Shown one piece after another: positions 1 to 38,087 of a stretch of 64,000 nt of DNA; position 1 is the stretch's first letter; each line of letters opens with the position of its first letter. The stretch is from Bacteroidota bacterium (GTDB taxonomy: Bacteria > Bacteroidota > Bacteroidia > NS11-12g > UBA955), in the NCBI GenBank assembly GCA_963169345.1, contig CAUJCT010000053.1, positions 310,001 through 374,000 on the forward strand, written 5' to 3'. Under the pieces are notes generated by a model. It saw nothing but the letters and a program-made list of their open reading frames with translations. It was not told the origin of the DNA and made no database searches. The position numbers and the translations under genes were made by a program.

Positions 1-464
1 CTATGAGTTCTCGCCACCGACAAAGCTTTGGAATTATTTTGTTTGAGCCAGGCCATAAAAATTGTGTCATAAAACCAAAATGAATACAAAATAGTATTCT
101 CTGAAATTGTAATGCCATTCAATAAGAGTCGAGACTGTATTTGTTCAGCTTTAAAAATATTGGAAACTATTCTGGCAATGGCTGATTTAATTGGCAATAG
201 TTTGCCGGATTTTCTGATTTCAAACAGATAAATTCCTAATATTTTTTTCCAGTTACCGGTAAGGATTTTCTTCTTACTAAACGATTTCCAATCCATAAAA
301 TCGTCAAACACTACTACATTCTTGGGAATCTCGCTTTTATTATCAACTGTGTCAATGGAAAAGAGATAAATTTTTTCAAATACTTCAGAGCATTTAATAA
401 TGTCTTTTAAAATAAAAGGTATCTCCGTATCATCAACAAAATATATCAATTGCTTTTTCTTCAT
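1..464 (-). CDS. Glycosyltransferase, N-terminal part (cut by window edge)
   Basis: The reading frame is open from the ATG at 464 to base 1, giving about 154 residues that begin MKKKQLIYFVDDTEIPF. Residues around 125-154 read YSFWFYDTIFMAWLKQNN followed by a VART stretch. This resembles the YSYWxxxxA...RxHxxD region of bacterial GT4-type glycosyltransferases of O-antigen and capsule loci. The catalytic C-terminal half lies outside the window. The start overlaps the stop of the upstream membrane protein gene as ATGA, so it is the distal visible gene of the polysaccharide operon. Family assignment rests on the short pattern and on context. Acceptor and donor are unknown. Confidence 0.55.
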   Translation of the reverse strand, partial: MKKKQLIYFVDDTEIPFILKDIIKCSEVFEKIYLFSIDTVDNKSEIPKNVVVFDDFMDWKSFSKKKILTGNWKKILGIYLFEIRKSGKLLPIKSAIARIVSNIFKAEQIQSRLLLNGITISENTILYSFWFYDTIFMAWLKQNNSKALSVARTH

Positions 465-2038
465 TTCTTACTATAAACCATAATTTCTCCAAAAAAGGTA
501 TCTAGCTCATAATCTACATTTTCATGCGATTTAAATTGCTCATATAAATTTACATTAAATTCCTTTTCAGGATATTTCAATAAAAGCTTTTGTGGATGAT
601 TTTTATTGAAAACAATATAATCGTTAGAGTCATTCCAAATTTTATCTGGAAAATCCCAATACCATTGAAAATTCGTTGATTGTATTTCAGGTAGTTTAGA
701 TGCAAACGGATGGTAAAGATCAACTTTAACAAAGTCTTCGAAAGGATATAACATAGTTCCATCGGTGCCAACTTTAGAATACCCTTTAGCACCTGGTCTG
801 CTTTTTATGTACTCAATTGCCTTCAAACTATTGTTTCTTGTTTGAATCATCTCCTTCTCAGTTGATAAATGGCTGTATAAAGGCAATTCCCTTGTGAAAA
901 AGAAAAACAAACTCACAGAAAACACTAAAATCAGAGCAGAAAACACAGCAGAATTCAATTGGGCGAAATATTTATTCTCAATTGAAATGAGTAAACCTAA
1001 TACCAGCATCAATTGAGCTGTCCACAAATAATGAGGCCATGTTCTTTTGGTTAGTACTACGATAGCAGTAAATAAAATAAATCCGGAAAGCAGCAATACA
1101 GTGGAAGAATATGATTTTAATTTTACCTCATGTTTAACGGCATATATCAATCCTAAAAGCGCTAATCCAATAAAAAAATAAGACAGATAACTGAATCCAA
1201 AATAGGCTCCGCCATACTCCGACATCCAATTTAATACACCGGTATCAGCATTATCATAGGATTTAGCTGTTCCTCCAAATGTTTCATGTAAATACGTTTT
1301 AAGAAACATCGGTTTAACTGGCGTGAGCACTAAACAAGGAATTGCTAATAAAAAACCAGATAAAAAATAAACAAATGAGCCTATGCCTTTCATGAAAGAA
1401 GGCTTAAATCCATATTTTAATACAGGTAATAAAAAGAGCAAAGGCATTATCAATAGAATATTGAATTTTAACCCATACGCTATTCCTAGAAACAAAAAGT
1501 GAGCTCCGAATTTCCATTCACTTTTTTTAAATCTATTCAGAAAAACAGCTAAGAAAAAGATCTGCCATGGCTCTGGTTTAGGCATCATTATAAAATAGAG
1601 CGTGTAGTATAATCCAAAAGCTGACAGATAAAAAACAAGTTTACTTAACTTATCTTTTAAAAATGTGTTTGCCAGTATATATGCTGAAATTAAAATTAAA
1701 AATGCATGCACTAAACGTATTGTAAGTACCAAACCGCCAACACCCCATATTTTAAATGGGACAAAGGCCAGAAGTGCATCCAGATAAAACATGATTCTGC
1801 CATAGAAAAGCACATTGCCGCATATAACAGACATTATAAAATGCTTGATTGAAATTGGATGAAGTATTGAATAGACTTCCTTTACTGCAATATACTCATC
1901 ATGACCAGCAATTTTAGAGTTGATATTTGAGCCATCCAGAAACTGAAGATTCAGAAATATGGATATTATTGCAAATCCAATCCCAATGGCCGTTTCAAGC
2001 CAATACTTTGTAAAAAAACTCTTGAAATTTAATGTCAT
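461..2038 (-). CDS. GT-C-type integral membrane glycosyltransferase-like protein
   Basis: 525 residues with about ten hydrophobic segments between residues 15 and 385, followed by a soluble tail. An acidic pair in the first outer loop (HDEY, about residues 46-49) fits the catalytic loop of GT-C enzymes (ArnT/PMT-like), which use polyprenyl-phosphate sugars on the outer face of the inner membrane. The KPEPWQ motif near residue 154 also resembles the conserved loop of this fold. The gene is coupled by ATGA to the glycosyltransferase downstream and lies 7 bp after an SGNH-like acylation gene. Likely role: adding a sugar to the lipid-linked glycan in the periplasm. The substrate cannot be inferred. 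Confidence 0.6.
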   Translation of the reverse strand: MTLNFKSFFTKYWLETAIGIGFAIISIFLNLQFLDGSNINSKIAGHDEYIAVKEVYSILHPISIKHFIMSVICGNVLFYGRIMFYLDALLAFVPFKIWGVGGLVLTIRLVHAFLILISAYILANTFLKDKLSKLVFYLSAFGLYYTLYFIMMPKPEPWQIFFLAVFLNRFKKSEWKFGAHFLFLGIAYGLKFNILLIMPLLFLLPVLKYGFKPSFMKGIGSFVYFLSGFLLAIPCLVLTPVKPMFLKTYLHETFGGTAKSYDNADTGVLNWMSEYGGAYFGFSYLSYFFIGLALLGLIYAVKHEVKLKSYSSTVLLLSGFILFTAIVVLTKRTWPHYLWTAQLMLVLGLLISIENKYFAQLNSAVFSALILVFSVSLFFFFTRELPLYSHLSTEKEMIQTRNNSLKAIEYIKSRPGAKGYSKVGTDGTMLYPFEDFVKVDLYHPFASKLPEIQSTNFQWYWDFPDKIWNDSNDYIVFNKNHPQKLLLKYPEKEFNVNLYEQFKSHENVDYELDTFFGEIMVYSKK

Positions 2039-2045
2039 TAATTCT

Positions 2046-2999
2046 CTATGGCTTTATAAAATCCGATTTTCCGACGGCATTTGTATAATTCAAAGTATCT
2101 AAAACAGTTCTCAAATATCGATTAAATTTTGGAATCTCATTCTCCCACATGTGGTGCCCATCTGTGGTTCTGAATTGATTTCTTGCAGGCATAATATCAA
2201 TATATGTAACTTTGTGTTTACCTGATATATTTAACATTAAGCTATTGAATTCAGGACACATTGTATCCTCAAGTTCCAACATTTCACTGGCTATAGGCAA
2301 TCTTATCAAATACACTTTACCGTCTAATTTAAGATAGTCAATTAGTTCTTCAAGATTTCTTAATTTATTAGCTGAAATTTTTCCTTTTTTATAGGTTTCA
2401 GACTGTTTATAGTTATCAATTTTAACACCTAACTTTCTTTTATAATCTTTGTTAAGGAACTCTTCTGTCATTGGTTTAATCATTCTGCCAAAAGAATTGA
2501 TGTGCAAATTGCGATCAGAATTCATCATAACATTGCTTATTTCCCAGATTGAAAGATTGGCAAACCTGAGAATATACTCAAAGTTAGGCCTCATAGGTTC
2601 CAGTTTCAATTTTGATGTAAAACTGGGATTAATAAGGTTCTCGGCACCTGGAATTGAACTTAAAGCCCACGGATCAACTGTTAGTATGTGTATTCTATTT
2701 TTATCAAAACTGGCATTTTGATGGTACTTTCTAATAAGAGCCATATAGCTATTATCATAAGGAGATGCATCAATTGTAAATGAAAAATTATACAGCTGTC
2801 CACCCAATATTGATGGCTCCAAATCTATTGCACTTCTGCTTGTACCAATAATCAAACCCTGATTATGGTAACTTGTCAATCGCGCATAGTTTTGATCAAT
2901 ATATGACTCGTACTTCAACAAATAGAAATAAAGTACACAGGCAAACACCAACAATGTTGCGATACAGTAATAAACGATTTTTAACAATAAATTTCTCAT
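2046..2999 (-). CDS. SGNH-fold partner of MBOAT acyltransferase (membrane-anchored)
   Basis: 317 residues. One membrane segment (about 7-27) anchors a periplasmic domain. GTSRS at 52-56 sits where SGNH/GDSL enzymes carry the nucleophile serine, and D280-G-H282 near the C-terminus matches the block V DxxH dyad. The gene follows the MBOAT gene by only 2 bp. In known polysaccharide acetylation systems (AlgI with AlgJ/AlgX, PatA/PatB) an MBOAT moves the acyl group across the membrane and an SGNH protein attaches it to the glycan; that role is inferred here. Its layout matches the second pair at 11097-13384, although the two SGNH proteins differ greatly in sequence. Confidence 0.6.
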   Translation of the reverse strand: MRNLLLKIVYYCIATLLVFACVLYFYLLKYESYIDQNYARLTSYHNQGLIIGTSRSAIDLEPSILGGQLYNFSFTIDASPYDNSYMALIRKYHQNASFDKNRIHILTVDPWALSSIPGAENLINPSFTSKLKLEPMRPNFEYILRFANLSIWEISNVMMNSDRNLHINSFGRMIKPMTEEFLNKDYKRKLGVKIDNYKQSETYKKGKISANKLRNLEELIDYLKLDGKVYLIRLPIASEMLELEDTMCPEFNSLMLNISGKHKVTYIDIMPARNQFRTTDGHHMWENEIPKFNRYLRTVLDTLNYTNAVGKSDFIKP

Positions 3000-3001
3000 T
3001 A

Positions 3002-4450
3002 TTAAAATTGAAAATAAATAAATGATGACTCACTTGAACCTTTAAACAGGCCAAGCAAAATCAATGTGCCCATACCAATATATATAACCGCTCTTAAGAC
3101 AGGATTTTTAACGGTTCTTAAATTCCTTTCATCCCTTCTCAAAAACCAATCGATAACTATTACAGGAACAATATACAACACGGCGAGAATGCCACCAGGC
3201 TTATGCAACAACTGACCGGGGTCCTCTACTAAATTTACAAAAATGCGCTTAATAAAAAGTAGGGCATCATTAAAATCCTTTATTCTAAAAAATATCCAGG
3301 CGAAAGTGACAAATGCAAAAGTACTTAGCATCTGGAACAACTCCTTAAAGGAAGGTATTTTGCTGCTTTCAGCTGCCACATTACCAAGATTTTTTCTGTT
3401 TTTACCCAATAACAATAAAGGTAAAAATCCACAGGCATGAATAAATCCCCACAAGATAAAATTCCAGCTGGCACCATGCCAAAATCCACTTACAATAAAA
3501 ATAATAAAAGTGTTCCTTATAGCTTTGTATTTTCCATCTTTGGAACCTCCAAGAGGGATATAAAGATAATCTCTGAACCACGATGATAAAGATATGTGCC
3601 AGCGTCTCCAGAACTCGGCAATATCTCTTGAGAAGTAGGGAAATTTAAAGTTACTTAACAACTCGAATCCTAAGAGTTTTGCAGTTCCTAATGCAATATC
3701 AGAATACCCGCTGAAATCAGCATATATCTGGAATGAAAAAGCAATTGAACCCATTATCAATGTTGTTGCACCCTGACCAGAGAAATCGGAATAAATTAAA
3801 TCCACAACTATTGCCAAACTATCTGCAATAACAATCTTCTTAAACATTCCCCATAATATGAGTCTGCAGCCATAAACCGCATTTCTGAAATTAAAACTTC
3901 TGAATGTTTGTACCTGTGGTAAAAGATGATTAGCTCTCTCAATAGGACCTGCAACGAGTAAAGGAAAGAAACTTACAAATACAGCATAATCAATAAAATT
4001 TGAAATAGGTTTTTGCCTTTTGTAATAAATGTCAAATACGTATGACATGCCATGAAATGTATAGAATGAAATCCCTACCGGTAGCGTCAAATTAAGCAAA
4101 GTCGGATTTAAATGTACTCCAAAACCTTCAAATAAATGCTGGAATTGAACAGCAAAAAAATCATAGTATTTGAATACAGCCAGAATGCCCAGATTGTTAA
4201 TTATACTCAACCAGAGAAATAACTTGGATTTTCTTTTATTATCAGAATTTACACCAAAACCGTAAAGAAAATCTATGATTGTATTAAGTGCTAACAGACC
4301 AAGAAATTTCCAGCTCCACCATCCATAAAAAACATAGCTGGCTATTAAAATTAATAGATTCTGATTTCTATAAGATTTGGAAAAAACAAACCAATAGAGA
4401 ATAAAAACTATCGGAAAAAATATGAGAAATTCAAATGAGTTAAATAACAC
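3002..4450 (-). CDS. MBOAT family O-acyltransferase (AlgI-like)
   Basis: 482 residues, polytopic, length typical of AlgI/DltB-like MBOAT proteins. The family core is clear: FPLLVAGPIERA near 162, FWRRWHISLSSWFRDYLYIPLG at 280-301, and SGFWHGASWNF at 321-331 with the conserved His at 325. It should take an acyl group (probably acetyl) from a cytoplasmic donor and pass it across the inner membrane to a periplasmic transferase. The SGNH-type gene directly downstream is the obvious partner. It is a clear paralogue of the MBOAT at 11951-13384, with the same MLFNS start and near-identical core motifs. Confidence 0.9.
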   Translation of the reverse strand: MLFNSFEFLIFFPIVFILYWFVFSKSYRNQNLLILIASYVFYGWWSWKFLGLLALNTIIDFLYGFGVNSDNKRKSKLFLWLSIINNLGILAVFKYYDFFAVQFQHLFEGFGVHLNPTLLNLTLPVGISFYTFHGMSYVFDIYYKRQKPISNFIDYAVFVSFFPLLVAGPIERANHLLPQVQTFRSFNFRNAVYGCRLILWGMFKKIVIADSLAIVVDLIYSDFSGQGATTLIMGSIAFSFQIYADFSGYSDIALGTAKLLGFELLSNFKFPYFSRDIAEFWRRWHISLSSWFRDYLYIPLGGSKDGKYKAIRNTFIIFIVSGFWHGASWNFILWGFIHACGFLPLLLLGKNRKNLGNVAAESSKIPSFKELFQMLSTFAFVTFAWIFFRIKDFNDALLFIKRIFVNLVEDPGQLLHKPGGILAVLYIVPVIVIDWFLRRDERNLRTVKNPVLRAVIYIGMGTLILLGLFKGSSESSFIYFQF

Positions 4451-4460
4451 CTTACTTTTA

Positions 4461-5189
4461 TTATTTTATTCTTCCTGATTGAATGCTTTTTCGTAGCTCA
4501 AAAATATAATTGAAGCTCCTTTTTATTAGTTTCCACTTTGTTTTAAAAGAAGAACCACTCCCTCCCTTCGCCACTCCTGCAACACGTTTGGCAAAGTAAA
4601 CCGGAAAATGAGCAATTTTTCCTATTCTCTTTGCCTGATATAGAAAATATAAATCCAAAGAGAAGTCGTGTGGTGCATCATTTTGTATTTTTTCAAAAAA
4701 CAACTTACTGAACAATTTAGGTTGAGCGTTGATTTCAGTGAGCCTGGTACTTAATGCTATGGAAGCAATGACGCCCATTCCGTATGAAAAAAGTGCCTCA
4801 GTTATTTGACGATTCTTCCTAAATCCTTTTACTAACAGGAAAGGATTGTTTTCGTTTTTATATATTTCAAATGCCTTTAAAACATCCATTGGGTCGGTCT
4901 GTCTGTCGGCATGCGTTACAGATAGGACATCGCCTGTAGCTGATTGTAATCCGCTTAATATACCAAAGCCATATCCAATATTTTTCTCTACCGTATATAC
5001 TTTATAATTATTTGAATTACGCTTTGCCAATTCATTCTTAAAAACCAAATCAGAACCATCCGTAGATCCATTATTAACCAGGACAATTTCAATGTCAGGC
5101 TTCGCTTGAACAAGTAAGTCTAATCTTTGAAACAAAGCTTCAAGGTTGTCTTTCTCATTATAACATGGTAAAATAACCGAAAGCTTCAT
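4461..5189 (-). CDS. Family 2 glycosyltransferase
   Basis: 242 residues with a GT-A fold: LSVILPCYNEKDNL at the N-terminus, NNGSTDGS near 41, and a THADRQTDP segment around 94 in place of the usual DxD site. Polyprenol-phosphate glycosyltransferases of the DPM1/GtrB type look similar, but there are no C-terminal membrane helices. The start overlaps the preceding nucleotidyltransferase gene as ATGA. The product may transfer the unit activated by the two neighbouring nucleotidyltransferases; that link is inference from gene order alone. Confidence 0.8.
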   Translation of the reverse strand: MKLSVILPCYNEKDNLEALFQRLDLLVQAKPDIEIVLVNNGSTDGSDLVFKNELAKRNSNNYKVYTVEKNIGYGFGILSGLQSATGDVLSVTHADRQTDPMDVLKAFEIYKNENNPFLLVKGFRKNRQITEALFSYGMGVIASIALSTRLTEINAQPKLFSKLFFEKIQNDAPHDFSLDLYFLYQAKRIGKIAHFPVYFAKRVAGVAKGGSGSSFKTKWKLIKRSFNYIFELRKSIQSGRIK

Positions 5190-5959
5190 TTTAAATTATG
5201 GAGTTTAGTAAACCATTCATCCCAGTAGTTAAAAGTTTCATAATCGTTTGGAGTACCCCAGCACACGTAGTGTTCGATCTCAAAAACTTTTACTTTATAA
5301 CCTAAATCAATTAAATCGTTGATACATTCATCGACATAAAATTCATTGTTGATTCTTTTATTTCTGGCTATCATTCTTTCGGCAGCTTCAACAAAATACC
5401 TGCCTTTATTAAACCAAAATGCCCCTACAACTGCATGATCATTCATTGGTGTAGAACTTATAGGCACCTTAACGCTCATAGCGTCTACAACGTTGTCATC
5501 TTTTACTTTTATCCAACCATAAGCTTCGGGTTTAGAAGTTACCGATGGATTATTTCTAAAACTAAAGACGATTGCATCTGCACTATTTTTCAAACTATTA
5601 AACTGCTCAATATCGTATATCATTCCATTATCACTTGCCCCAATGACTAATTCATCATCATTGTTTATGATTGATTTTGCCGAAAGGCAGGTCACAGCCT
5701 GACCTTCCGTAAGGTGATCCAATACGACAATATTTGGACTATCAAAGTACTTATTGAGATATTGGTCGATTTGAAAATCTTGAATCTGAAAATCCCTAAC
5801 AACAAAAGTGTAGGAATCGGCTATTGGAAGCGCCTCTGCAGCTGACACTACCATTGGCTTACCAAGAATATCCAGCAGAGGTTTAGGAGTTGTATAACCT
5901 TCGTCCTTAAAACGACTTCCCGCTCCAGCCATAGGAACTAATGCATTTCTTCTTTTCAT
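5186..5959 (-). CDS. Nucleotidyltransferase (NTP_transferase family), copy 1
   Basis: 257 residues from the ATG at 5959, chosen because it forms an ATGA overlap with the upstream gene. A start 30 bases further upstream (5989) is open but would overlap the neighbour by 34 bases. The activation loop AGAGSRF (11-17) and PKPLL (25-29) are those of sugar-phosphate nucleotidyltransferases, and a WGTPNDYETF motif closes the domain near the C-terminus. It should join an NTP to a phosphorylated substrate. It is the second of two adjacent, divergent members of the family, so the pair may activate two substrates or form a heteromer. Nucleotide and substrate are not readable from sequence. Confidence 0.8.
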   Translation of the reverse strand: MKRRNALVPMAGAGSRFKDEGYTTPKPLLDILGKPMVVSAAEALPIADSYTFVVRDFQIQDFQIDQYLNKYFDSPNIVVLDHLTEGQAVTCLSAKSIINNDDELVIGASDNGMIYDIEQFNSLKNSADAIVFSFRNNPSVTSKPEAYGWIKVKDDNVVDAMSVKVPISSTPMNDHAVVGAFWFNKGRYFVEAAERMIARNKRINNEFYVDECINDLIDLGYKVKVFEIEHYVCWGTPNDYETFNYWDEWFTKLHNLK

Positions 5960-6729
5960 TTTCTGTAATGCCCGATTATTTTGCCCCAATTAATATACTC
6001 TTCAAGGTCTTCTGGCGTACCCCATTGACAAAAATGAGGCACCTGATCATAAACCTTTACTGAAAGCCCTTCTTCTTTTAATAGATTATATACCAGACTG
6101 ACATAATACTCTCCATTCAAATTGATATCTCTGTCAATCATCATTTGAAAATACCTTTTGACATACGATCCTTTTGAGAAATAATATGTGCCTCCGGAAT
6201 GGTAAGCTTTCATTTTATTTTCCTCAAAAGAGAATTTCTCTCTAATTTCCAACATGTTCAAATTTTCATCCACTTTACAGGAGGCATATAAATTTTTAGG
6301 ATGTAATAAATGTGGATGAAAACCGGTGTAACAAGGAATTGCGCCATCACAAGCCGACTGTTTTACCCAAGTTATAAAATGTGAAAAATCCCAGTCTTGA
6401 TAAAAATCACAATAATTCACAATTACTTCATCTTCGTCATTTATCTCATGAAATGCCTGTGCAACCGCATAAACCGGACCCAGCTTGTGCCCTTCTATGC
6501 CAATGATTTTGCCATTTGGTGCAATTCTATTTAAAACTTCACGCATGTTGGTGCTTTCCAAATGCTCGTTTCTGCAAATAAAAATAAAATCGTTTTCACC
6601 AGGAAATAACTCTACAACCCATTCGATAATAGGCTTTCCCTGAACTTCAATCAGAGGTTTAACCGACTTATAGCCCGCATCAGCAAAACGCTTTCCCAGC
6701 CCCGACATTGGTATAATTATCTTCATCAA
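5956..6729 (-). CDS. Nucleotidyltransferase (NTP_transferase family), copy 2
   Basis: 257 residues. SGLGKRF at 9-15 and KPLIEVQGKPI near 24-34 give the nucleotide-binding loop of the sugar-nucleotidyltransferase superfamily. NYCDFYQDWD near residue 113 supplies a metal-binding Asp, and WGTPEDLEEYINW ends the domain. It is a paralogue of the next gene rather than a standard RmlA, GalU or ManC type: shorter, and with no hexapeptide or CBS domain. It lies 3 bp after the class II aldolase gene. Its likely role is to activate the product of the aldolase/kinase/phosphatase group upstream, which is inference from context. Confidence 0.8.
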   Translation of the reverse strand: MMKIIIPMSGLGKRFADAGYKSVKPLIEVQGKPIIEWVVELFPGENDFIFICRNEHLESTNMREVLNRIAPNGKIIGIEGHKLGPVYAVAQAFHEINDEDEVIVNYCDFYQDWDFSHFITWVKQSACDGAIPCYTGFHPHLLHPKNLYASCKVDENLNMLEIREKFSFEENKMKAYHSGGTYYFSKGSYVKRYFQMMIDRDINLNGEYYVSLVYNLLKEEGLSVKVYDQVPHFCQWGTPEDLEEYINWGKIIGHYRK

Positions 6730-6732
6730 TTT

Positions 6733-7767
6733 CTATTCAAATAAACTCTTTCTGTGTTTTTCCATTGACATCGAATTAATATAATCAATGTCCTCAGCAG
6801 TTATAAATTTTGGTAAACTTTGTTGACTCATTATTGTATCAAATATAAATAAATAAGCCGTCAGCGTTTCGTGTATGGATAATGCCTCTCTTTCCTTGCA
6901 ATGATAGGATATTACATCAGATCCAATTGAAATTCTGGATGGCTGAGAGTCATTAAAACTGATATTGCCCTTAAAAAACACTGTTTGATCAGGAAATAAA
7001 ACTTGCTCAAAAAAGCCAATATCTGCCTGGTATTTTTTAATCATTTCAATTGTAAAATCCGAAGCCGGCTTCCAGGCATCTTCTAAAGCAATCAACTTTG
7101 CAGATGGGTAATCTGCCTTAATTCCCATTATTTCCTGAATTGAAGTATCTATTGAATCCAGATATTCCTTAACCTTACCAAAGGTATCCGAATGGGCAAT
7201 GATGCCATGATTTGCCAATAAAAAAACTTCAGGTTTCTTTTTGCCGTTGGCCTTTGCGTGAATAAGTGCTTGAGTAACCAGATATGAAAGTCCAAACCCA
7301 GGGCTAACAAAAGGTATACTTACAATTTCAAAACCTGTACTTTCTTTAAGCTTTTCAGTCAGTTCGAGTCTTTTAGAATTGCAATTGATAAGATTAGACC
7401 AAACAGAATGTGTATGAACAACATACTTATCCAGTACCGCATGAAATCCGGTTTCCATAGAAGGTTTTGGATATTGTGAGCCATCTGATTTTAAGTTGAC
7501 AGCGTTATCAACTATTTTCAACATAGACTCTTCATTTTCTTTTTTATCAGTAGCTTCTACATTAAAGAAGAAGTTGCTTATTGGCTGATAATCTACACAA
7601 GAAATTCCCGTCTCTTCTGTCATTTCTTCAAACCTGAATCCTGAAGCTTTGATATACATCTTATCATCCTTTTTGACAGATGTATTTCCACCTGGACCTT
7701 GAATTAAATCAGGTCTTTGAGAAAACAGCTTTGTCAGTTTGAGTATGCCATGGATAGCTTCAGTCAT
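6733..7767 (-). CDS. Class II aldolase/adducin family protein
   Basis: 344 residues, longer than the usual 210-270 of fuculose-1-phosphate aldolases; the extra length is mainly C-terminal. The metal site is intact: GGNTS at 26-30, E105 in METG, H118 and H120 in HTHS, and H187 in LANHG. Members of the family cleave or form ketose phosphates, or act as epimerases or decarboxylases, with a divalent metal. It is coupled (TAATG) to the upstream GT-C/kinase fusion and followed by two nucleotidyltransferases. A class II aldolase in a polysaccharide operon suggests synthesis of an unusual short-chain sugar or polyol phosphate. The reaction is unknown. Confidence 0.8.
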   Translation of the reverse strand: MTEAIHGILKLTKLFSQRPDLIQGPGGNTSVKKDDKMYIKASGFRFEEMTEETGISCVDYQPISNFFFNVEATDKKENEESMLKIVDNAVNLKSDGSQYPKPSMETGFHAVLDKYVVHTHSVWSNLINCNSKRLELTEKLKESTGFEIVSIPFVSPGFGLSYLVTQALIHAKANGKKKPEVFLLANHGIIAHSDTFGKVKEYLDSIDTSIQEIMGIKADYPSAKLIALEDAWKPASDFTIEMIKKYQADIGFFEQVLFPDQTVFFKGNISFNDSQPSRISIGSDVISYHCKEREALSIHETLTAYLFIFDTIMSQQSLPKFITAEDIDYINSMSMEKHRKSLFE

Positions 7768-9875
7768 TATTTGTATTTTAGTTCATTAAATATGATGTAA
7801 GTGACAAATATTTGTAATAACCCTTCGTAATTATCCTTCCAAACTGAATTATAAATACCAATATCTTCTAGTTCTGGTAAACATCTGTCGGCAATCATTT
7901 CAATTTGTTCCTTGGCAATAGAGCCATTCAGACTGATAACTTGTCTTTCAGAAGCATAATTGTGATCAATGGTGAGAGTCCCAACTTTTAGTCTTTCAAT
8001 TAAAGGATCGAGGTCTATATCATTGGAAATGGTTAGTTTTAAACCTATAACGGGTTCAACTTCCTGTTTGACCGGATCGATATCATTCACAGGAAAATAA
8101 GAAGCTATGATATCTGCTTGGGCTGATTGTGAACGAATATACTTTTCAGAGTCTTCTTCTCTTTGCTTTAATTGTTCCAGCACCTTTTCAGGAGAATATC
8201 CTCTTTTTGCAACATCTCTCTGAACTTTCCACCACATTCTAAGCTGCTCTTCAGGTTCCATAAATATCCTCAAATCATAAACTTCAGATTGATTGTTGAG
8301 ATAGAAAGAATGCAAACCTTCAAATACAATCAGTTTGTTAGGTTTTATGAATTTTGGAAGTGTAAACTTTCCGGTAGAATGGTCATAGTTGCGTCTTCTT
8401 ATACTTCTGCCTGATTTAAGTACTCTTGCATGTTCTAGGTCTTCATGAATTTTATTGGCTCTCGGATCCAAATGTGTAAAATTGTTCCAGTTCTCATTAC
8501 CTCTCTCCCATTTATGCATATCATCGCCTCTTATGATACTTGTATTGCCTGGTTCGAATACCGCTGCCAGTCCTTCACTTAAAGTTGATTTTCCACTTGC
8601 TGAATCACCTCCAATACCAAGTAAATAAGGTTGTGAAAGAAATTTTGACTGAATATTGCTTCCTATACCCTTCATAAAAACAAGATAACCAGTTAATATG
8701 AGAGTAGTCTGTAAAAGAGTAAACGACACATTCAAAGATTTAGGATTCGACAACATACAACCATAGTCTGAGTCAACATTAAAAGAACTGATATTACAAG
8801 AATTCCAGTAATCGGATTCAGGAATTAAACCAAAGTATACAAAATACAATACCGTCAATAAAATGAATACTTGTTTTTCCCTTATGTTCTGTCGTATGAT
8901 AAAATAGACCAACAAAGGTACAATCCAGTAATACCAGCCTTGCATTGGGGCAATCATGAGTGTCAGTGCAAGAAATGTAAATGCGAGAAATAATACGAGC
9001 TGATCTCTGTTAACAAATTTGAAATTGAAATAATATACAACCAAAATAAAATAGATGGCCGGAATAAAATAGATTTTCAGGTTTGAATTAAACTGATAGA
9101 ATAGATCGAAGATCTGCTGTTGTACAGGATTATTATACACCATTTCTAAATAATCTGCACTACCAAGAAACGGAGCATTAATGATTGCAACAGTGACTAT
9201 TAATGCTAAAATTGAAACTACTATCTGCTTCCAGTTCACCTGAGATGATTTGAATAAGAACAGTACATAAAATGGTAAAACTAATACCATATTTGTTTTA
9301 GTTGCAATTGCCAAACCCAGACAGACAAAAGCCAATAACCATCTTGATTTAAATAAGAAGTAAAGTGAAATCATCATTATGGCAATTGGAATAACATCCA
9401 ATTGACCATGAAAATAATTAATGTAAATCAAAACAGGCGACAGCCAATACCAGATTAAAACTTGTCTGGTTCTTGTCTTAAGCCATCGAATCAAAACTAA
9501 AAGAATAGCAAAGTCGGCAGCCAGTAAAGGCAGTCTAAAAATTAAACTATCGGCCATAGTAAATGCTTCTACAGCCCCCGGAAAAAGTGGCCAAAGCAAC
9601 ATTCTGGGTAGAGTAAACAAGGCCAGCATGAAAGGTGGATATGGAAATTCTACACCCTTACCATTCTGATTGAAGTATTGATAAGGGTCATCGAAGCCAG
9701 ATGAAATGAAATAATTTCCAAACGGAGCAAATAACTCACGCAGATAAGATGAAGCAAAAAACAAAGAGATAAGAAGTTTCAATACCAGCCCAAACCAGAA
9801 TAATCTGGATTTAGCGAGCGGAATTTTACTTCTACCGCGTTTATCCTTAAATATAGAATTAACCGCTCTTTTCAT
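7767..9875 (-). CDS. Fusion: GT-C-type membrane glycosyltransferase + uridine-kinase-like P-loop kinase
   Basis: 702 residues. Residues 20-400 are a polytopic GT-C-like domain with an acidic loop FDDPYQYF (61-68) and NYFHGQLD (153-160), as in PIG-M/DUF2029-type mannosyltransferases. Residues 415-610 are a cytoplasmic kinase of the phosphoribulokinase/uridine kinase family: Walker A GGDSASGKST (422-431), RGDDMHKW (449-456), RRRNYDHSTGKF (493-504) and VFEGLHSFY (517-525). About 90 more residues follow. One frame runs through both domains with no stop, so the fusion is genuine in this sequence. The kinase probably phosphorylates a small hydroxylated substrate for the neighbouring nucleotidyltransferases. 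Pairing with a membrane glycosyltransferase is unusual. Confidence 0.85.
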   Translation of the reverse strand: MKRAVNSIFKDKRGRSKIPLAKSRLFWFGLVLKLLISLFFASSYLRELFAPFGNYFISSGFDDPYQYFNQNGKGVEFPYPPFMLALFTLPRMLLWPLFPGAVEAFTMADSLIFRLPLLAADFAILLVLIRWLKTRTRQVLIWYWLSPVLIYINYFHGQLDVIPIAIMMISLYFLFKSRWLLAFVCLGLAIATKTNMVLVLPFYVLFLFKSSQVNWKQIVVSILALIVTVAIINAPFLGSADYLEMVYNNPVQQQIFDLFYQFNSNLKIYFIPAIYFILVVYYFNFKFVNRDQLVLFLAFTFLALTLMIAPMQGWYYWIVPLLVYFIIRQNIREKQVFILLTVLYFVYFGLIPESDYWNSCNISSFNVDSDYGCMLSNPKSLNVSFTLLQTTLILTGYLVFMKGIGSNIQSKFLSQPYLLGIGGDSASGKSTLSEGLAAVFEPGNTSIIRGDDMHKWERGNENWNNFTHLDPRANKIHEDLEHARVLKSGRSIRRRNYDHSTGKFTLPKFIKPNKLIVFEGLHSFYLNNQSEVYDLRIFMEPEEQLRMWWKVQRDVAKRGYSPEKVLEQLKQREEDSEKYIRSQSAQADIIASYFPVNDIDPVKQEVEPVIGLKLTISNDIDLDPLIERLKVGTLTIDHNYASERQVISLNGSIAKEQIEMIADRCLPELEDIGIYNSVWKDNYEGLLQIFVTYIIFNELKYK

Positions 9876-10528
9876 ATTGTATTATCGTCAATCTGATAAG
9901 CCTTTATACCAATGCTCTCTGCACCTTTAATATCTTTTTCATAGCTGTCTCCAATCATTATTACTTCCGAAGGTTTCAAATTTAACTTATCGAGAGCCAA
10001 TTGAAATATAGCTGGTTCAGGTTTTTCTACACCGGCTTCCTCAGAACTGACCATATATCTGACATATTGGTTTAAACTGAGTTTTTCTAACTTCCTTAGC
10101 TGAATTTGTGCAGTCAGATCGGTAACAATAGCCATTTCAATACCATTCAATCGGGCATTGTTCATAAGCTCCAATGCACCTTCTCTGACTTTCATAGAGT
10201 TGAGAAAGGTACTCCAGTACACTTCTTCCAATTTTAATCCAAATTCAGAACTGGTAAACCCTTTGGCAAATTCATGCAGCTTTTGCAAGTATAGCAATCT
10301 TGAATGTGAGGCACCCTGACCATGAAGTTGGTTGTGAACAATATCTCTTGACTTTTTCCAAAAAGCATCAAATTGTGATTCACTTATATCAAATCCCAAA
10401 GCAGTTTTTCGTGTTTCCTGATAGGCAATTTTATGAACAGACTCATAGATATAGATAGTATTATCAAGGTCCCAGAGTATCCCTTTTACTCCATCCAAAC
10501 TTATTTTATTCCAATTTTCTACTACCAT
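9872..10528 (-). CDS. HAD-superfamily phosphatase
   Basis: 218 residues. Motif I is DLDNT at 20-24 with the nucleophile and acid/base Asp pair; motif II is IVTD near 134-137; the motif III Lys lies in GVEKPEP; and motif IV is MIGDSYEKD near 191. A helical cap sits between motifs I and II, as in subclass I HAD hydrolases such as phosphoglycolate phosphatase. It overlaps the GT-C/kinase fusion by ATGA and the GDPD-like gene by 7 bp. Beside an aldolase, a kinase and two nucleotidyltransferases it most likely removes a phosphate from an intermediate before re-phosphorylation at another position. That step is inferred. Confidence 0.85.
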   Translation of the reverse strand: MVVENWNKISLDGVKGILWDLDNTIYIYESVHKIAYQETRKTALGFDISESQFDAFWKKSRDIVHNQLHGQGASHSRLLYLQKLHEFAKGFTSSEFGLKLEEVYWSTFLNSMKVREGALELMNNARLNGIEMAIVTDLTAQIQLRKLEKLSLNQYVRYMVSSEEAGVEKPEPAIFQLALDKLNLKPSEVIMIGDSYEKDIKGAESIGIKAYQIDDNTI

Positions 10529-11094
10529 AAATCAGGTCTTTTTGTACACACAGCATCAATGTCCATATTCGCAAGTTTCAATTTAAATTCATCTATTCTG
10601 GATATATCGTAACCTTGCAACTCAGGTGAAACAATGCATAACTTAAAGTGTTCTTTCAATAAATTATAAGTTGCCAAATCTAATGGAAGATCATTAAAAC
10701 AGTCTATCCAAACCCAATCTAACTTTCCTGCAAAACCCATAACAAAATCAATAGGTTCATACTCTGAAAAGCGAACTGCAATCTTTTTTACTCCTTTTTT
10801 CATATACTTGATCAAAAAAGGCAGAGATAAATCCAGAAAGAAATAATTCTCTATTTTGTGTTTTTCCATTAATTCAAGAATCCTGTCTTCCATACCCTCT
10901 GCTTTGGTATTTAAGATAAGCAAAGCATGTTGGTAATACTTTAGCCATTCTTCAAAATCCTCTCCTTCCTTAAAGGCATCATGGTGAATAATTATCTTGT
11001 CTCCAAATGGTCTTAAATCCATTTCAACACCATATTCTCCTGGAGTTTGTTTTAATTGTTCAATTGTATTTATTCTGTGAGCTATTTTAAGCAT
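10522..11094 (-). CDS. Glycerophosphodiester phosphodiesterase-like protein
   Basis: 190 residues. The N-terminus carries the GDPD signature in compact form: AHR at 5-7, VEMDLR at 23-28 (Glu and Asp metal ligands) and HHD at 37-39. The rest shows alternating beta/alpha segments (LILNTKAEGME, NYFFLDLS, AVRFSEYEP, WVWIDCF) consistent with a shortened TIM barrel. Classical GDPDs exceed 230 residues, so this one is short. There is no signal peptide, so it would act in the cytoplasm. Its position between acylation genes and the phosphatase/kinase/aldolase group suggests a phosphodiester intermediate or product; it may not be a true glycerophosphodiesterase. Confidence 0.6.
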   Translation of the reverse strand: MLKIAHRINTIEQLKQTPGEYGVEMDLRPFGDKIIIHHDAFKEGEDFEEWLKYYQHALLILNTKAEGMEDRILELMEKHKIENYFFLDLSLPFLIKYMKKGVKKIAVRFSEYEPIDFVMGFAGKLDWVWIDCFNDLPLDLATYNLLKEHFKLCIVSPELQGYDISRIDEFKLKLANMDIDAVCTKRPDLW

Positions 11095-11096
11095 AC

Positions 11097-11954
11097 TTAT
11101 TTTTCTCTTAATTGTTTTAAAACAAATTGTGTAAAATAATCAGCGCCTTTTCTGTTTAAATGAAATCTATCCGAAAAGTATTCGTTCGATAGCATCAAAC
11201 TTCTATCATTTAAATAACGCAAATTGTGTTTTTTCACATATTGATCTATAGCCAATTCAAGTCCTTTAACTTTAACTGCTGATGAATGCACCGGGCTCGT
11301 TAAAATAACAAGTTCTATTTTTTTACTTAAGCAAATCTCAGCTATTTTATCCAAATAGCGCATCTGAGTCGAAGATAGTTGTTCTTTATAATTACTGGTA
11401 ACTACAGCGTTAATTGCTTCCATAGTTATTGTGGAGTCAATGCCTTGGAAAGCGCCATATTGCTTCATGTAATTTTCTTTATCAAACAAATCTTGAATTG
11501 AAAACAAATTTGAAAAAGCCTTTAAGTAACCCCAGGGATTAAAAGAAGTCAGTTCCTTTACTTCACTCAAGCTCATATAAGGAAACACCTTTGGGAACTT
11601 AAAATTGATATAACTTTGAGATTTATACCATTCATCAGCGGTTATATCAATATTGTGATAGTCTATGCCTAAAACTACTGTATCAATAGAACTGTTGTCT
11701 TGCAACAATTTGACCAGTTTTGAGTATGTATAGAGATAATTATCTCCGCTTTGAGCAAATGTAATAATGTCATTGTAGGTATTGTCATTAATAGATTGTT
11801 CAATATGTGAATCACCTATAAATGCAATAGTAGCTGGCTTTATTAAAGTCCAGGATCTGTTCTTGTAGGCATTTTGTACTATAATAAATAATACGATTAC
11901 TACCACACAAGTAAAAATTGAAAACCAGACTATATGCTTATAAAAACTTCTCAA
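11097..11954 (-). CDS. SGNH-fold partner of second MBOAT acyltransferase
   Basis: 285 residues from a TTG at 11954 that overlaps the MBOAT stop as TTGA. An ATG exists at 12032 but would overlap the MBOAT gene by 82 bp, and its first 26 residues add nothing resembling the family. From the TTG the protein starts like its counterpart at 2046-2999: a short basic stretch, then one membrane helix (about 8-28). GDSH at 47-50 is the SGNH block I nucleophile motif, and D262-R-F-H265 is the block V dyad. It is the likely periplasmic acyl transferase or esterase working with the MBOAT protein. The start choice is moderately secure. Confidence 0.65.
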   Translation of the reverse strand: MRSFYKHIVWFSIFTCVVVIVLFIIVQNAYKNRSWTLIKPATIAFIGDSHIEQSINDNTYNDIITFAQSGDNYLYTYSKLVKLLQDNSSIDTVVLGIDYHNIDITADEWYKSQSYINFKFPKVFPYMSLSEVKELTSFNPWGYLKAFSNLFSIQDLFDKENYMKQYGAFQGIDSTITMEAINAVVTSNYKEQLSSTQMRYLDKIAEICLSKKIELVILTSPVHSSAVKVKGLELAIDQYVKKHNLRYLNDRSLMLSNEYFSDRFHLNRKGADYFTQFVLKQLREK

Positions 11955-13384
11955 AACTGAAAATAGATAAATGTTTGTGGTGTTGCTCCAAGAATAAGAA
12001 TGATCACTAGTATACTTGCGTAAATTAGCCATCTGAACGCCTTGCTCTTAATTCCATACATATTTTGAAGGGCATAATCTTTTTCTCTTCCTAACCATTC
12101 CATTACCAGCATTATTAAAATTAATATGAACACATTGGCTGGGCGGATTACAGGTAAAGAAAACAGATTACCTGTAAATATCCCTTTGAGATAACTGAAG
12201 GCCATAGAAACTGACTCAGCTCTAAAAAATACCCATATTAAGGAAACTATCAGGAATGTTGTCAAAACCTGAAAAAACTCTTTAATATTCGGAAGAAGTT
12301 TACCAGAAGCAACAACACCCTTAAAACTTGTTTTAAGAATGAAATTATCAGCAATTACAAACAGGGCATTAATAAAGCCCCACATGATAAAAGTCCAGTT
12401 TGCGCCATGCCAGAAACCACTGACTAAAAATACAATACCAACATTTATAATTTTTCTGAAATAGGTTGTTTGATTGCCCCCAAGAGGAATATATAAATAG
12501 TCTCTAAACCATGAAGACAAGGATATATGCCATCTCTTCCAGAATTCTGCAAGGTTTCTTGAAAAATATGGAAATGCAAAGTTCTTTAACAAATCAAAAC
12601 CCATAAGTCGAGCACTTCCAAGTGCTATATCAGAATAGCCGGAAAAATCTCCGTAAATTTGAAAAGCGAAGAAAATTGCACCAACTAGCAAAGTGCTGCC
12701 TGAATAATCAGAAGCATGATCAAAAATGGTATTGGCAAAAATTGCACAATTATCTGCAATAACAATCTTCTTAAATAGACCCCATAAAATTTGTCTTAAC
12801 CCTTCAATGGCATTGGATTCAGAAAATGTTCTTTTTCCTTCAATTTGAGGAAGTAAATGTGTAGCTCTCTCTATCGGACCAGCCACCAATAAAGGGAAAA
12901 AACTTACAAATAGTCCATAATCAATAAAATTCTTTCGAACCTCAACTTTCCCGTTATAACAGTCAAAAACGTAAGAAAGTCCGTGAAAAGTATAAAAAGA
13001 AATTCCTACTGGTAAGAGAACATCAATTCTTGCAAACGAACTGTTAATTCCAAATAAGTTTACAAGATCATTGCATATTTCAGAAAAGAAATTGAAGTAT
13101 TTAAATAAACCGAGAAATCCAAGGTTAATACCTACACTCAAAATCAACCAAAATTTCTTGTTCTTCTTTGAAACCGAATCATCTATTTTTATTGCACTGT
13201 AATAATCGAGAAGAGTTGAAAAAACAAGCAAGAATAAAAACTTCCAATTCCACATTCCATAAAAAAAGTAACTCATCAGAAGTAAAAATCCATTCTGGTA
13301 TATTCGGTTTCCTTTATTTAGCCACCAATAGATAATGACGACTACAGGCAAAAAGAAAAGATATTCCAGTGAATTGAAAAGCAC
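11951..13384 (-). CDS. MBOAT family O-acyltransferase (AlgI-like), second copy
   Basis: 477 residues, polytopic. It shares with the MBOAT at 3002-4450 the MLFNS start, the FPLLVAGPIERA segment, FWKRWHISLSSWFRDYLYIPLG (281-302) and SGFWHGANW (322-330, catalytic His 326). Two complete paralogues in one operon imply two distinct acyl decorations, or one acyl type at two positions, of the same glycan. The gene follows a GT4 glycosyltransferase by 19 bp and is coupled to its SGNH partner through a TTGA overlap. Confidence 0.9.
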   Translation of the reverse strand: MLFNSLEYLFFLPVVVIIYWWLNKGNRIYQNGFLLLMSYFFYGMWNWKFLFLLVFSTLLDYYSAIKIDDSVSKKNKKFWLILSVGINLGFLGLFKYFNFFSEICNDLVNLFGINSSFARIDVLLPVGISFYTFHGLSYVFDCYNGKVEVRKNFIDYGLFVSFFPLLVAGPIERATHLLPQIEGKRTFSESNAIEGLRQILWGLFKKIVIADNCAIFANTIFDHASDYSGSTLLVGAIFFAFQIYGDFSGYSDIALGSARLMGFDLLKNFAFPYFSRNLAEFWKRWHISLSSWFRDYLYIPLGGNQTTYFRKIINVGIVFLVSGFWHGANWTFIMWGFINALFVIADNFILKTSFKGVVASGKLLPNIKEFFQVLTTFLIVSLIWVFFRAESVSMAFSYLKGIFTGNLFSLPVIRPANVFILILIMLVMEWLGREKDYALQNMYGIKSKAFRWLIYASILVIILILGATPQTFIYFQF

Positions 13385-33827: not shown

Positions 33828-35012
33828 ATGCCTATTTATCGTCAAGTTGGAAAGATTCCTAAAAAACGTCATATCGTATTCCGTCAACCAAATGGAGAAT
33901 TATATCACGAAGAACTTTTTGGTACAGAGGGATTTTCAGGTGTATCTTCTTTGGTATATCACCTATATCCGCCAACAATGGTTAAAGATCATGGAAAACC
34001 ATACAGTGTACGTCCTGAAATTGCAATAGAAGATAATCTTCAGGCCAGGAGTTTCATGGGTTTTGAAGTTGATGCGGAGGAAGATTACATTCAAAGTCGC
34101 AAGGTCCTGTTTGTAAACGACGACCTGCATATTGGTCTTGCCTCGCCTATGAATGGTACCGTTGACTACTTTTTTAAGAATGCTGATGCCGACGAAATGT
34201 TGTTCATTCACAAAGGCAGTGGCGTATTAAAAACGATGTACGGTCAAATCGATTTTGAATATGGCGATTATGTCATAATTCCAAGAGGGACTGTGTACAG
34301 TATTCATTTTGAAACAGAAGACAACAAAATATTATTCATAGAATCTTTTAGTCCTATTGAAACTCCTGTCAGGTATCGCAACCAATATGGACAGTTTATG
34401 GAGAATTCTCCTTTTTGCGAGCGCGACATGAAGTTGCCGCATAGCATGGAAACAAACAGCGAAAAAGGTGAGTTCAAAATTAATATTAAGAAAAGAGGTT
34501 TAATATATCCTTATACATACGAGACTCACCCGTTTGATGTTGTTGGGTATGATGGCTGCAGCTATCCTTATGCTATGTCCATTTTCGATTTTGAACCAAT
34601 AACAGGCAGAATTCACATGCCGCCGCCTATTCACCAACATTTTCAGGCCAATAATTTTGTTGTTTGTTCATTTGTGCCGCGTCTATACGATTATCATCCG
34701 GACGCTATTCCGGCTCCTTACCATCATAGCAATATAGATAGCGACGAATTACTATATTATGTTGATGGTGACTTTATGAGCAGAAATAATATTCAAAAAG
34801 GGCAAATAACACTTCACCCTGGGGGCATTCCACATGGTCCACATCCTGGAGCAATCGAGAGAAGTATCGGTAAAAAAGAGACGCAGGAACTGGCAGTAAT
34901 GATAGACCCTTTCAGACCTGTAAAAATAACAAAAGAAGCTTTGAAAATAGAACTACCCGAGTACTTCAAATCATGGGTTAGTAGTGAACAACAAGAAACC
35001 ATCAACTTATAA
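33828..35012 (+). CDS. hmgA: Homogentisate 1,2-dioxygenase
   Basis: 394 residues, close to the short bacterial form. The cupin signature is strong: MPIYRQVGKIPKKRH start, PPPIHQHFQANNFVVCSF near 265-282, the iron-site region PYHHSNIDSDE (297-307) and HPGGIPHGPHPG (330-341) with His336. It opens the ring of homogentisate to maleylacetoacetate using Fe(II) and O2, the step after HPPD in tyrosine degradation. It is the first enzyme gene of the island; hppD follows at 13 bp. The next tyrosine enzymes (isomerase, fumarylacetoacetase) are not in the window. Confidence 0.93.
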   Translation: MPIYRQVGKIPKKRHIVFRQPNGELYHEELFGTEGFSGVSSLVYHLYPPTMVKDHGKPYSVRPEIAIEDNLQARSFMGFEVDAEEDYIQSRKVLFVNDDLHIGLASPMNGTVDYFFKNADADEMLFIHKGSGVLKTMYGQIDFEYGDYVIIPRGTVYSIHFETEDNKILFIESFSPIETPVRYRNQYGQFMENSPFCERDMKLPHSMETNSEKGEFKINIKKRGLIYPYTYETHPFDVVGYDGCSYPYAMSIFDFEPITGRIHMPPPIHQHFQANNFVVCSFVPRLYDYHPDAIPAPYHHSNIDSDELLYYVDGDFMSRNNIQKGQITLHPGGIPHGPHPGAIERSIGKKETQELAVMIDPFRPVKITKEALKIELPEYFKSWVSSEQQETINL

Positions 35013-35025
35013 AAACCAAACAATC

Positions 35026-36186
35026 ATGGATACATTAGATTTGACAAGTGTCAAAAATTTCAATTACGCAGAAAATAAAAAGATATTCGATAAAGCACAG
35101 GATTTTCTGCCAATCAACGGTACAGATTACGTTGAATTGTATGTAGGTAACGCTAAGCAATCTGCTCATTTCTACAAAACAGCATTAGGGTTTCAGGACC
35201 TTGCGTATATGGGTCTGGAAACAGGTTGTAAAGACAGAACATCCTACGCTTTACAACAAGGTAAAATCAGACTGGTATTAACTACTCCCTTTGATCCTGA
35301 AAGTGAAATATCAAAACATCTGATTCAACATGGTGATGGGGTAAAAGTCATAGCACTCTGGGTAGACGATGCTTATGATGCCTTTGAACAAACTGTTAAA
35401 AGAGGCGCAAAACCTTATATTCAACCTGAAACAATTGAAGATAAAGATGGCATAATCCGTCGTTCAGGTATTCATACTTATGGAGATACAGTTCATATAT
35501 TTATTGAAAGAAAAAATTATAACGGAATATTCCTTCCTGGATATGAAAAACTTGAAACCGAATACAAGCCTATACCAACCGGATTAAAATACATTGACCA
35601 CATGGTTGGCAATGTAGAGCTCGGAGCGATGAATGTATGGTCTGAATTCTATGCCAATGTAATGGGTTTTGCTAATCTGGTGACATTTGATGACAAAGAT
35701 ATATCGACCGAATACACAGCATTGATGAGCAAAGTTATGACCAATGGCAATGGGTATATCAAATTTCCAATCAACGAACCTGCCATCGGCAAAAAGAAAT
35801 CACAGGTAGAAGAGTATCTTGATTTCTATCGTGGTCCTGGTTGTCAACACATAGCTGTAGCGACTGATGATATTGTCTTCACTATATCAGAAATGAGAAA
35901 AAGAGGTGTAGAGTTTCTCTATGTCCCAGGCACCTACTATGATACGGTTAAAGAAAGAGTTGGTATTATCGAAGAAGACCTGGAAGAATTGAAAAGATGG
36001 GGTATTATGGTAGATCGCGATGAAGAAGGTTACTTGCTACAGATTTTCACAAAACCTGTAGAAGACAGACCAACTCTGTTCTTTGAAATTATTCAGAGAA
36101 AAGGGGCTAAGTCGTTTGGAAAAGGTAATTTTCAAGCTTTATTCGAAAGCATTGAAGCGGAACAAGCCAGAAGAGGAACACTCTAA
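35026..36186 (+). CDS. hppD: 4-hydroxyphenylpyruvate dioxygenase
   Basis: 386 residues from the ATG at 35026. A GTG at 34984 is open but would overlap hmgA by 29 bp. Two VOC-fold halves: YVELYVGN opens the first and YIDHMVGN the second. The 2-His-1-Glu iron site is H192 (DHMVGN), H275 (CQHIAVAT) and E354 (LFFEIIQR). The enzyme converts 4-hydroxyphenylpyruvate to homogentisate, the substrate of the adjacent HmgA. The C-terminal GKGNFQALFESIE helix is typical. Confidence 0.95.
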   Translation: MDTLDLTSVKNFNYAENKKIFDKAQDFLPINGTDYVELYVGNAKQSAHFYKTALGFQDLAYMGLETGCKDRTSYALQQGKIRLVLTTPFDPESEISKHLIQHGDGVKVIALWVDDAYDAFEQTVKRGAKPYIQPETIEDKDGIIRRSGIHTYGDTVHIFIERKNYNGIFLPGYEKLETEYKPIPTGLKYIDHMVGNVELGAMNVWSEFYANVMGFANLVTFDDKDISTEYTALMSKVMTNGNGYIKFPINEPAIGKKKSQVEEYLDFYRGPGCQHIAVATDDIVFTISEMRKRGVEFLYVPGTYYDTVKERVGIIEEDLEELKRWGIMVDRDEEGYLLQIFTKPVEDRPTLFFEIIQRKGAKSFGKGNFQALFESIEAEQARRGTL

Positions 36187-36197
36187 TTTTCTAATTT

Positions 36198-36725: not shown

Positions 36726-36726
36726 T

Positions 36727-38082: not shown

Positions 38083-38087
38083 ATAAA

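Follow-up and report, generated by a model that had tools for sequence, protein, structure and literature searches.

A membrane GT-C transferase joined to a phosphoribulokinase-type kinase, in a gene cassette that may draw on ribulose 1,5-bisphosphate for surface glycan

Introduction

Why would a P-loop kinase be joined to a membrane glycosyltransferase? The question is raised by one gene in a 64,000-nucleotide stretch of a Bacteroidota bacterium genome (GenBank assembly GCA_963169345.1, contig CAUJCT010000053.1, positions 310,001 to 374,000; hereafter the window, in whose own numbering positions are given). This gene, read on the minus strand from 9875 to 7767, encodes a 702-residue protein (FUS) in which a polytopic GT-C transferase half precedes the kinase half. 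An earlier note on this DNA had described the kinase as uridine-kinase-like and had suggested a new sugar or polyol kinase tied to membrane glycan assembly. The reading towards which we lean is that FUS combines a phosphoribulokinase (PRK) with a polyprenyl-phosphate-dependent transferase in a glycan cassette fed by ribulose 1,5-bisphosphate (RuBP), where it would act as a two-headed enzyme at both ends of one surface-glycan pathway. No earlier description of a GT-C and PRK fusion was found in the literature, most subscription journals and preprints lying outside the coverage.

Results

The fusion protein

The FUS frame starts with ATG and contains zero internal stops, and the plus strand opposite it is full of stops. 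GC content hardly changes from one side of the join to the other (34% and 36%). Pfam assigned aa 419-599 to PF00485 (PRK/uridine-kinase; 127.7 bits against a cut-off of 22) and aa 77-307 to GT87 (25.5 bits against 25), and the structure model was a confident two-domain prediction (mean pLDDT 89.8, pTM 0.84). Among 39 related genomes, 34 matched FUS at E <= 0.001 and 17 (own genome counted) did so over approximately the whole length. An assembly error or a chance fusion, the former named in the earlier note as a case that would undo it, is of negligible probability: the single frame is open in 80 to 90 genomes and records, near-full-length homologues occur in many genomes and many phyla, the sampled kinase halves form one clade, and the model confidently has two domains. 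Both were rejected, and the joining of a P-loop kinase to a polytopic GT-C transferase is confirmed as genuine.

The kinase half

The kinase half was compared with NCBIfam models and scored best with PRK07429 (NF005655; 210.6 bits, curated cut-off 236), a PRK model being matched by 25 of 26 FUS members. Among PDB sequences, PRKs were best at 157.6 bits, against 45.8 bits for uridine kinase. The kinase model (aa 409-702) has the full-length two-part PRK fold, with Z scores of 29.8 to 9qkp (283 residues) and 29.5 to 5b3f (274 residues), against approximately 21 to uridine kinase. Its P-loop (GGDSASGKST, aa 422-431) is intact. Residues that bind ribulose 5-phosphate (Ru5P) and ATP are known in the M. 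hungatei and R. sphaeroides PRKs (PMC5241800). Mapped onto FUS, these contacts fall on D451, H454, R458, Y497, H499, K550 and R553, which were invariant already in the first alignment; the equivalents of M. hungatei His55, Arg59, Tyr98, His100, Lys151, Arg154 and the catalytic Asp are invariant outside picocyanobacteria. With R558 included, all eight residues were found in 66/66 non-cyanobacterial homologues covering them, in 3/3 plasmid copies, and likewise in four Cyanobacteriota that are not autotrophs and in four alphaproteobacteria.

A uridine or nucleoside kinase that feeds nucleotide to the synthesis of nucleoside diphosphate (NDP) sugars shares the superfamily, and some FUS members carry that name in databases. 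The two curated uridine kinase models gave only 70.8 bits (cut-off 180) and 66.1 bits (cut-off 220.3), a host uridine kinase lacks the equivalents of H454, R458, H499 and K550, and separate proteins of uridine-kinase size (200-230 aa) are present in the hosts. Score, fold and residues thus rule this function out as a candidate and leave it a vanishingly small probability; the kinase half is PRK-type, not uridine-kinase-type, contrary to the earlier description.

The fused kinases were then placed among stand-alone PRKs. One very long class I branch disturbed a first tree, which was repeated without it; all 27 tested fused kinases formed one clade outside the stand-alone PRKs (support 98/99). 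Because of this separate clade and the score below the cut-off, the kinase half is named PRK-type rather than a member of PRK07429. It shares with class II PRKs (plant, cyanobacterial and archaeal; 9qkp, 5b3f, 6kev) the full-length fold, the P-loop and the tested Ru5P/ATP residues, and differs in its fusion to GT-C, its hosts without a Calvin cycle, its separate clade and its sub-threshold score. Given the PRK scores, the PRK fold and the kept Ru5P residues, the likely substrate is Ru5P rather than that of a new sugar or polyol kinase, and the head probably has PRK activity (Ru5P to RuBP).

The separate clade and the score below the PRK07429 cut-off would also suit a head whose specificity has shifted to another ketose or polyol phosphate (e.g., xylulose 5-phosphate, or a ketose phosphate that the aldolase described below would produce), with RuBP uninvolved, as would the broad substrate range of the phosphatase and aldolase families of the cassette. 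The invariance of every tested Ru5P contact and the RuBP-specific phosphatase family that best fits the cassette phosphatase speak for Ru5P, and we regard a shift of specificity as unlikely.

Kinase decay in picocyanobacteria

FUS was found in 11/299 genomes of the Prochlorococcus order, in an operon of aldolase (ALD), fused nucleotidyltransferases (NT2NT1), GtrA, polyprenyl-phosphate glycosyltransferase (GT2), GDPD-like phosphodiesterase, FUS and HAD phosphatase, with small variations and some copies cut by contig ends. The kinase site is destroyed in all 11, with the frames still open, and the catalytic residues of HAD, ALD, NT2, GDPD-like and GT-C are retained. RuBisCO was detected in 10 of these 11 hosts (295-469 bits), and a PRK of its own is present in one host (G420). 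Four other Cyanobacteriota, which lack a true RuBisCO (a 70-bit match in one of them), have an intact kinase. In a search of 47 non-cyanobacterial hosts, no further PRK-type gene exceeded the size and score range of uridine kinases, and no RuBisCO-family match was seen in 43; RuBisCO was not found in the genome of the window.

In a tree of the GT-C half, decayed copies fell in two clades, the second adjoining an intact Azospirillum copy. A single clade of decayed copies, and with it a single origin of the degenerate kinase, was rejected by the approximately unbiased (AU) test (p 0.0023), and the kinase has decayed at least twice independently. On the simplest reading, the product of a kinase that alone has decayed in hosts making RuBP would be something that Calvin-cycle cells have, namely RuBP. 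Based on two events, the decay pattern gives strong but not conclusive support to RuBP as product. If specificity had shifted, the picocyanobacterial loss would mean that the product is supplied by another enzyme or by the ordinary PRK; the loss of the kinase alone from RuBP-making hosts points instead to RuBP and keeps a shift in the minority of our expectations. This decay makes the question of the kinase substrate directly testable.

Many cyanobacterial genomes (L136-L155) carry two stand-alone PRK-type genes, of approximately 337 and 315-333 aa. The second group (315-333 aa) contains no fusions and groups with a Mycobacterium plasmid PRK.

The transferase half

The model of the GT-C half was matched to GPI mannosyltransferase I (Z 29.5, 350 residues, in its Dol-P-Man-bound form), ALG3 (26.6), ArnT (20.2) and PimE (18.6), with ALG6 also among the best matches; all are users of polyprenyl- or dolichyl-phosphate sugars. 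The predicted fold is shared with GPI mannosyltransferase I, ALG3, ArnT and PimE/GT87 over approximately 260-350 residues, and the GT-C half resembles such transferases; it differs from them in sequence (10-14% identity), in an unconserved DD of the first outer loop and in the attached kinase. Conserved residues are D121, HGQLD 156-160, K193 and W314. The acidic loop FDDPYQYF, read in the earlier note as a GT-C hallmark, is present without conservation of its acids (aa 62 varies, and at aa 63 Asn, in 45/69, is commoner than Asp, in 18/69). GT87 is barely reached by the window protein, and members at loci L022 and L116 have no GT87 match.

The cassette

Membership was counted at the 44 loci that had 6 kb or more of flanking sequence on each side: NT2 and ALD were each present at 40, GT2 and NT1 at 38, HAD at 37 and the GDPD-like gene at 35. 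Gene order is variable and membership constant; the class II aldolase and the paired nucleotidyltransferases, whose co-occurrence with the fusion the earlier note had proposed to survey, are its constant partners. NT1 is fused to NT2 in Flavobacteriaceae, Prochlorococcus and plasmids, and GtrA is found in many cassettes (e.g., Acetobacter, E. coli plasmid). In some Bacteroidia only the fusion and aldolase are adjacent, and the NT2-NT1 pair and, mostly, HAD lie elsewhere in the genome; among dispersed genomes at least 90% complete, 8/8 have both NT2 and HAD, so that missing partners were rejected for the more complete genomes. Among 72,556 plasmids, this HAD type occurs solely in the three records that carry the fusion. 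The recurrent linkage to nucleotidyltransferases, GT2 and often GtrA bears out the proposed tie to glycan assembly. The GtrA-GtrB-Gtr(type) serotype-conversion modules likewise contain a GtrB-like GT2, a flippase-type GtrA (as in many cassettes) and a GT-C transferase; the cassette differs in having its own donor-synthesis enzymes, one of them fused to the transferase, and the window copy has no adjoining GtrA.

All 31 HAD members tested matched NF053830, a model of haloarchaeal RuBP 5-phosphatase (best E 2.1e-57; next family 2.6e-38), and the catalytic residues (DxD, T/S, K, D..D) are kept in essentially all members, cyanobacterial ones included. In ALD, the catalytic Glu (E105) and three metal-binding His (H118, H120, H187) are present in 71/71 sequences, and profile and fold are closest to ketose-1-phosphate aldolases. 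The NCBIfam fucA equivalog gave 22.3 bits, far below its cut-off of 400. An AraD-type epimerase role was judged less likely, the catalytic Glu being as in FucA and sequence and fold nearer to FucA than to AraD. GT2 resembles dolichyl-phosphate mannose synthase (DPMS) and sll0501, as expected for the loading of polyprenyl phosphate. Structure matches of the nucleotidyltransferases were weak and insufficient to name a substrate.

From RuBP to glycan

From these observations we infer a series of reactions. The cytosolic kinase head likely converts Ru5P to RuBP in cells without CO2 fixation. HAD would plausibly remove the 5-phosphate to give ribulose 1-phosphate (Ru1P), a step that we favour only slightly over its absence. 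The FucA-type aldolase may then rebuild or cleave a ketose 1-phosphate, yielding a pentulose phosphate or cleavage products, and the nucleotidyltransferases may activate its product; the donor could be an activated pentulose. GT2 would place the activated unit on polyprenyl phosphate, GtrA or an equivalent would flip it, and the GT-C head would transfer it to a glycan outside the cell, each a plausible step. Whether carbon derived from RuBP ends in a glycan stands at even chances in our estimate. We give equal weight to acceptance and doubt for the wider proposal, that cells without carbon fixation make RuBP as a surface-glycan precursor by a dedicated PRK covalently linked to the transferase that consumes the end product, and that picocyanobacteria plug the cassette into the Calvin cycle, whereupon the kinase head decays.

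In the D-glycero-D-manno-heptose pathway, a kinase is followed by the bisphosphate phosphatase GmhB and the nucleotidyltransferase HddC. The cassette follows this logic but uses different enzyme families and, as we read it, a pentulose bisphosphate.

Several results weigh against this proposal. The kinase half falls short of the PRK07429 cut-off, the window HAD is below that of NF053830 (177.1 vs 330 bits) though this is its best family, and ALD hardly matches the Ru1P aldolase model (20.9 bits, cut-off 300). Ru1P carries its phosphate on a carbon other than the anomeric one, which precludes direct synthesis of an ordinary NDP-sugar from it. GtrA is absent from the window cassette, the search for it not having been extended to the rest of the window genome. 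RuBisCO was not seen in one decayed-kinase host (G664), perhaps through incompleteness, and two independent decays are too few for a significant sign test. Some alphaproteobacterial hosts with intact kinases have RuBisCO-family proteins of 242-250 bits, which are probably RuBisCO-like; they belong to Aureimonas ureilytica (G748, L072) and Brucella pecoris (G422, L077).

In haloarchaea, conversion of RuBP to Ru1P by a HAD phosphatase, followed by cleavage to dihydroxyacetone phosphate (DHAP) and glycolaldehyde by a FucA-type enzyme, has been demonstrated (PMC9700705). This non-carboxylating pentose bisphosphate pathway shares with the cassette a RuBP-phosphatase-like HAD and a FucA-type class II aldolase; its RuBP comes from ribose 1,5-bisphosphate isomerase, and the cassette would use PRK, is glycan-linked and has a HAD under the family cut-off. 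Kinase, HAD and aldolase might accordingly form a PRK-fed version of that carbon pathway (Ru5P to RuBP to Ru1P to DHAP and glycolaldehyde), linked to glycan only through a C2 or C3 fragment. The order of enzymes fits, and in some Bacteroidia the fusion and aldolase stand alone together. Those Bacteroidia have NT2 (with NT1), and in most cases HAD, at other places in the genome, and the constant nucleotidyltransferases and GT2, the frequent GtrA and the GT-C fusion indicate assembly rather than catabolism; the carbon pathway is improbable, more so than a shifted kinase specificity.

If the RuBP-to-glycan proposal is right, RuBP, best known for accepting CO2 in the RuBisCO reaction, gains a second major fate, and microbes unable to fix CO2 would appear to use a metabolite of photosynthesis for surface decoration. 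It would explain PRK-like genes of non-autotrophs now misnamed uridine kinase, and it predicts a new activated pentulose, or a product derived from one, in the surface glycans of bacteria and archaea. D-xylulose residues occur in several bacterial polysaccharides (PMC8707391), and the literature yielded no description of the activation of such units.

Distribution

Full-length FUS homologues (80 to 90) were found in Bacteroidota, Patescibacteria, Cyanobacteriota, Pseudomonadota, Omnitrophota, DPANN archaea and plasmids. A scan of named genomes, many of them metagenome bins whose names may be wrong, gave 68 loci, nearly all full length, in Bacteroidota, Patescibacteria, Melainabacteria, one spirochaete, Alphaproteobacteria, SAR86, Deferribacterota, Omnitrophota, Aenigmatarchaeota, Woesearchaeota and Prochlorococcus. 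Occurrence is sporadic, with full-length copies in 4/395 genomes of the window's class (own genome included), FUS in 5/385 of Acetobacter's class and in 2/5,426 E. coli genomes. Plasmid-borne copies were found in Azospirillum, Hirschia and E. coli; the cassette travels across phyla and has reached plasmids, an E. coli IncR plasmid among them. No phage carrying FUS was found when looked for, and no chromosomal E. coli O-antigen version of the cassette was found at DNA level.

The E. coli IncR plasmid carries the complete cassette near IS26 (L116, NZ_CP145712.1, 6022-14984); a second E. coli strain, from a bullfrog, has an identical copy. In a Rickettsiaceae bin (L092, 7989-10156), FUS is split into two frames and the neighbouring cassette genes are shortened, perhaps through decay or sequencing error.

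The window locus and its flanks

FUS belongs to a compact series of minus-strand genes whose neighbours overlap, or are separated, by a few bases (Table 1). Near relatives have the order GDPD-like, HAD, fusion, ALD, NT2, NT1, GT2, membrane protein.

Table 1. Positions of FUS, its motifs and the cassette genes in the window.
Feature	Position	Strand	Remarks
Fusion protein (FUS), GT-C transferase + PRK-type kinase	7767..9875	minus	702 aa, one frame
GT-C half, polyprenyl/dolichyl-phosphate-sugar-dependent fold (predicted)	8658..9833	minus	aa 15-406
PRK-type kinase half, complete	7770..8639	minus	aa 413-702
P-loop GIGGDSASGKST	8583..8618	minus	aa 420-431
DDMHKWER (PRK catalytic Asp; His, Arg of Ru5P site)	8502..8525	minus	aa 451-458; roles from PMC5241800
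Y497-D-H499 (Ru5P phosphate binding)	8379..8387	minus	alignment; roles from PMC5241800
K550, R553, R558 (Ru5P/ATP lid residues)	8202..8228	minus	alignment; roles from PMC5241800
ALD, class II aldolase, FucA-like	6733..7767	minus	Glu105, His118/120/187
NT2, nucleotidyltransferase	5956..6729	minus	
NT1, second nucleotidyltransferase	5186..5989	minus	
GT2, GtrB/DPMS-like polyprenyl-phosphate glycosyltransferase	4461..5189	minus	
HAD phosphatase	9872..10528	minus	best match RuBP 5-phosphatase
GDPD-like phosphodiesterase	10522..11094	minus	HR..E.D..HD residues
MEM, polytopic membrane protein	461..2038	minus	recognised mainly in near relatives

The surroundings are a polysaccharide region with glycosyltransferase, asparagine-synthase-like, ABC-transporter and MBOAT-type genes (assigned by inspection). 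Pairs of SGNH-like and MBOAT-like genes flank the cassette on both sides (2046-4450 and 11097-13384, minus strand). The two MBOATs are alike, a relative of one being 50% identical to the other, which suggests duplication and two acylation steps.

Short open reading frames (ORFs) beside the fusion in near relatives were considered as GtrA and rejected; they encode PDDEXK_3 and 23S rRNA intervening-sequence-type proteins, inserted between cassette genes (L031, 7376-7744; L033, 7464-7856; L028, 12748-13113). Defence-system models gave zero matches. Further along the window (33828-39014, plus strand), a compact set of genes resembles, by inspection, aromatic amino-acid degradation, with homogentisate, 4-hydroxyphenylpyruvate, kynurenine and tryptophan dioxygenase types.

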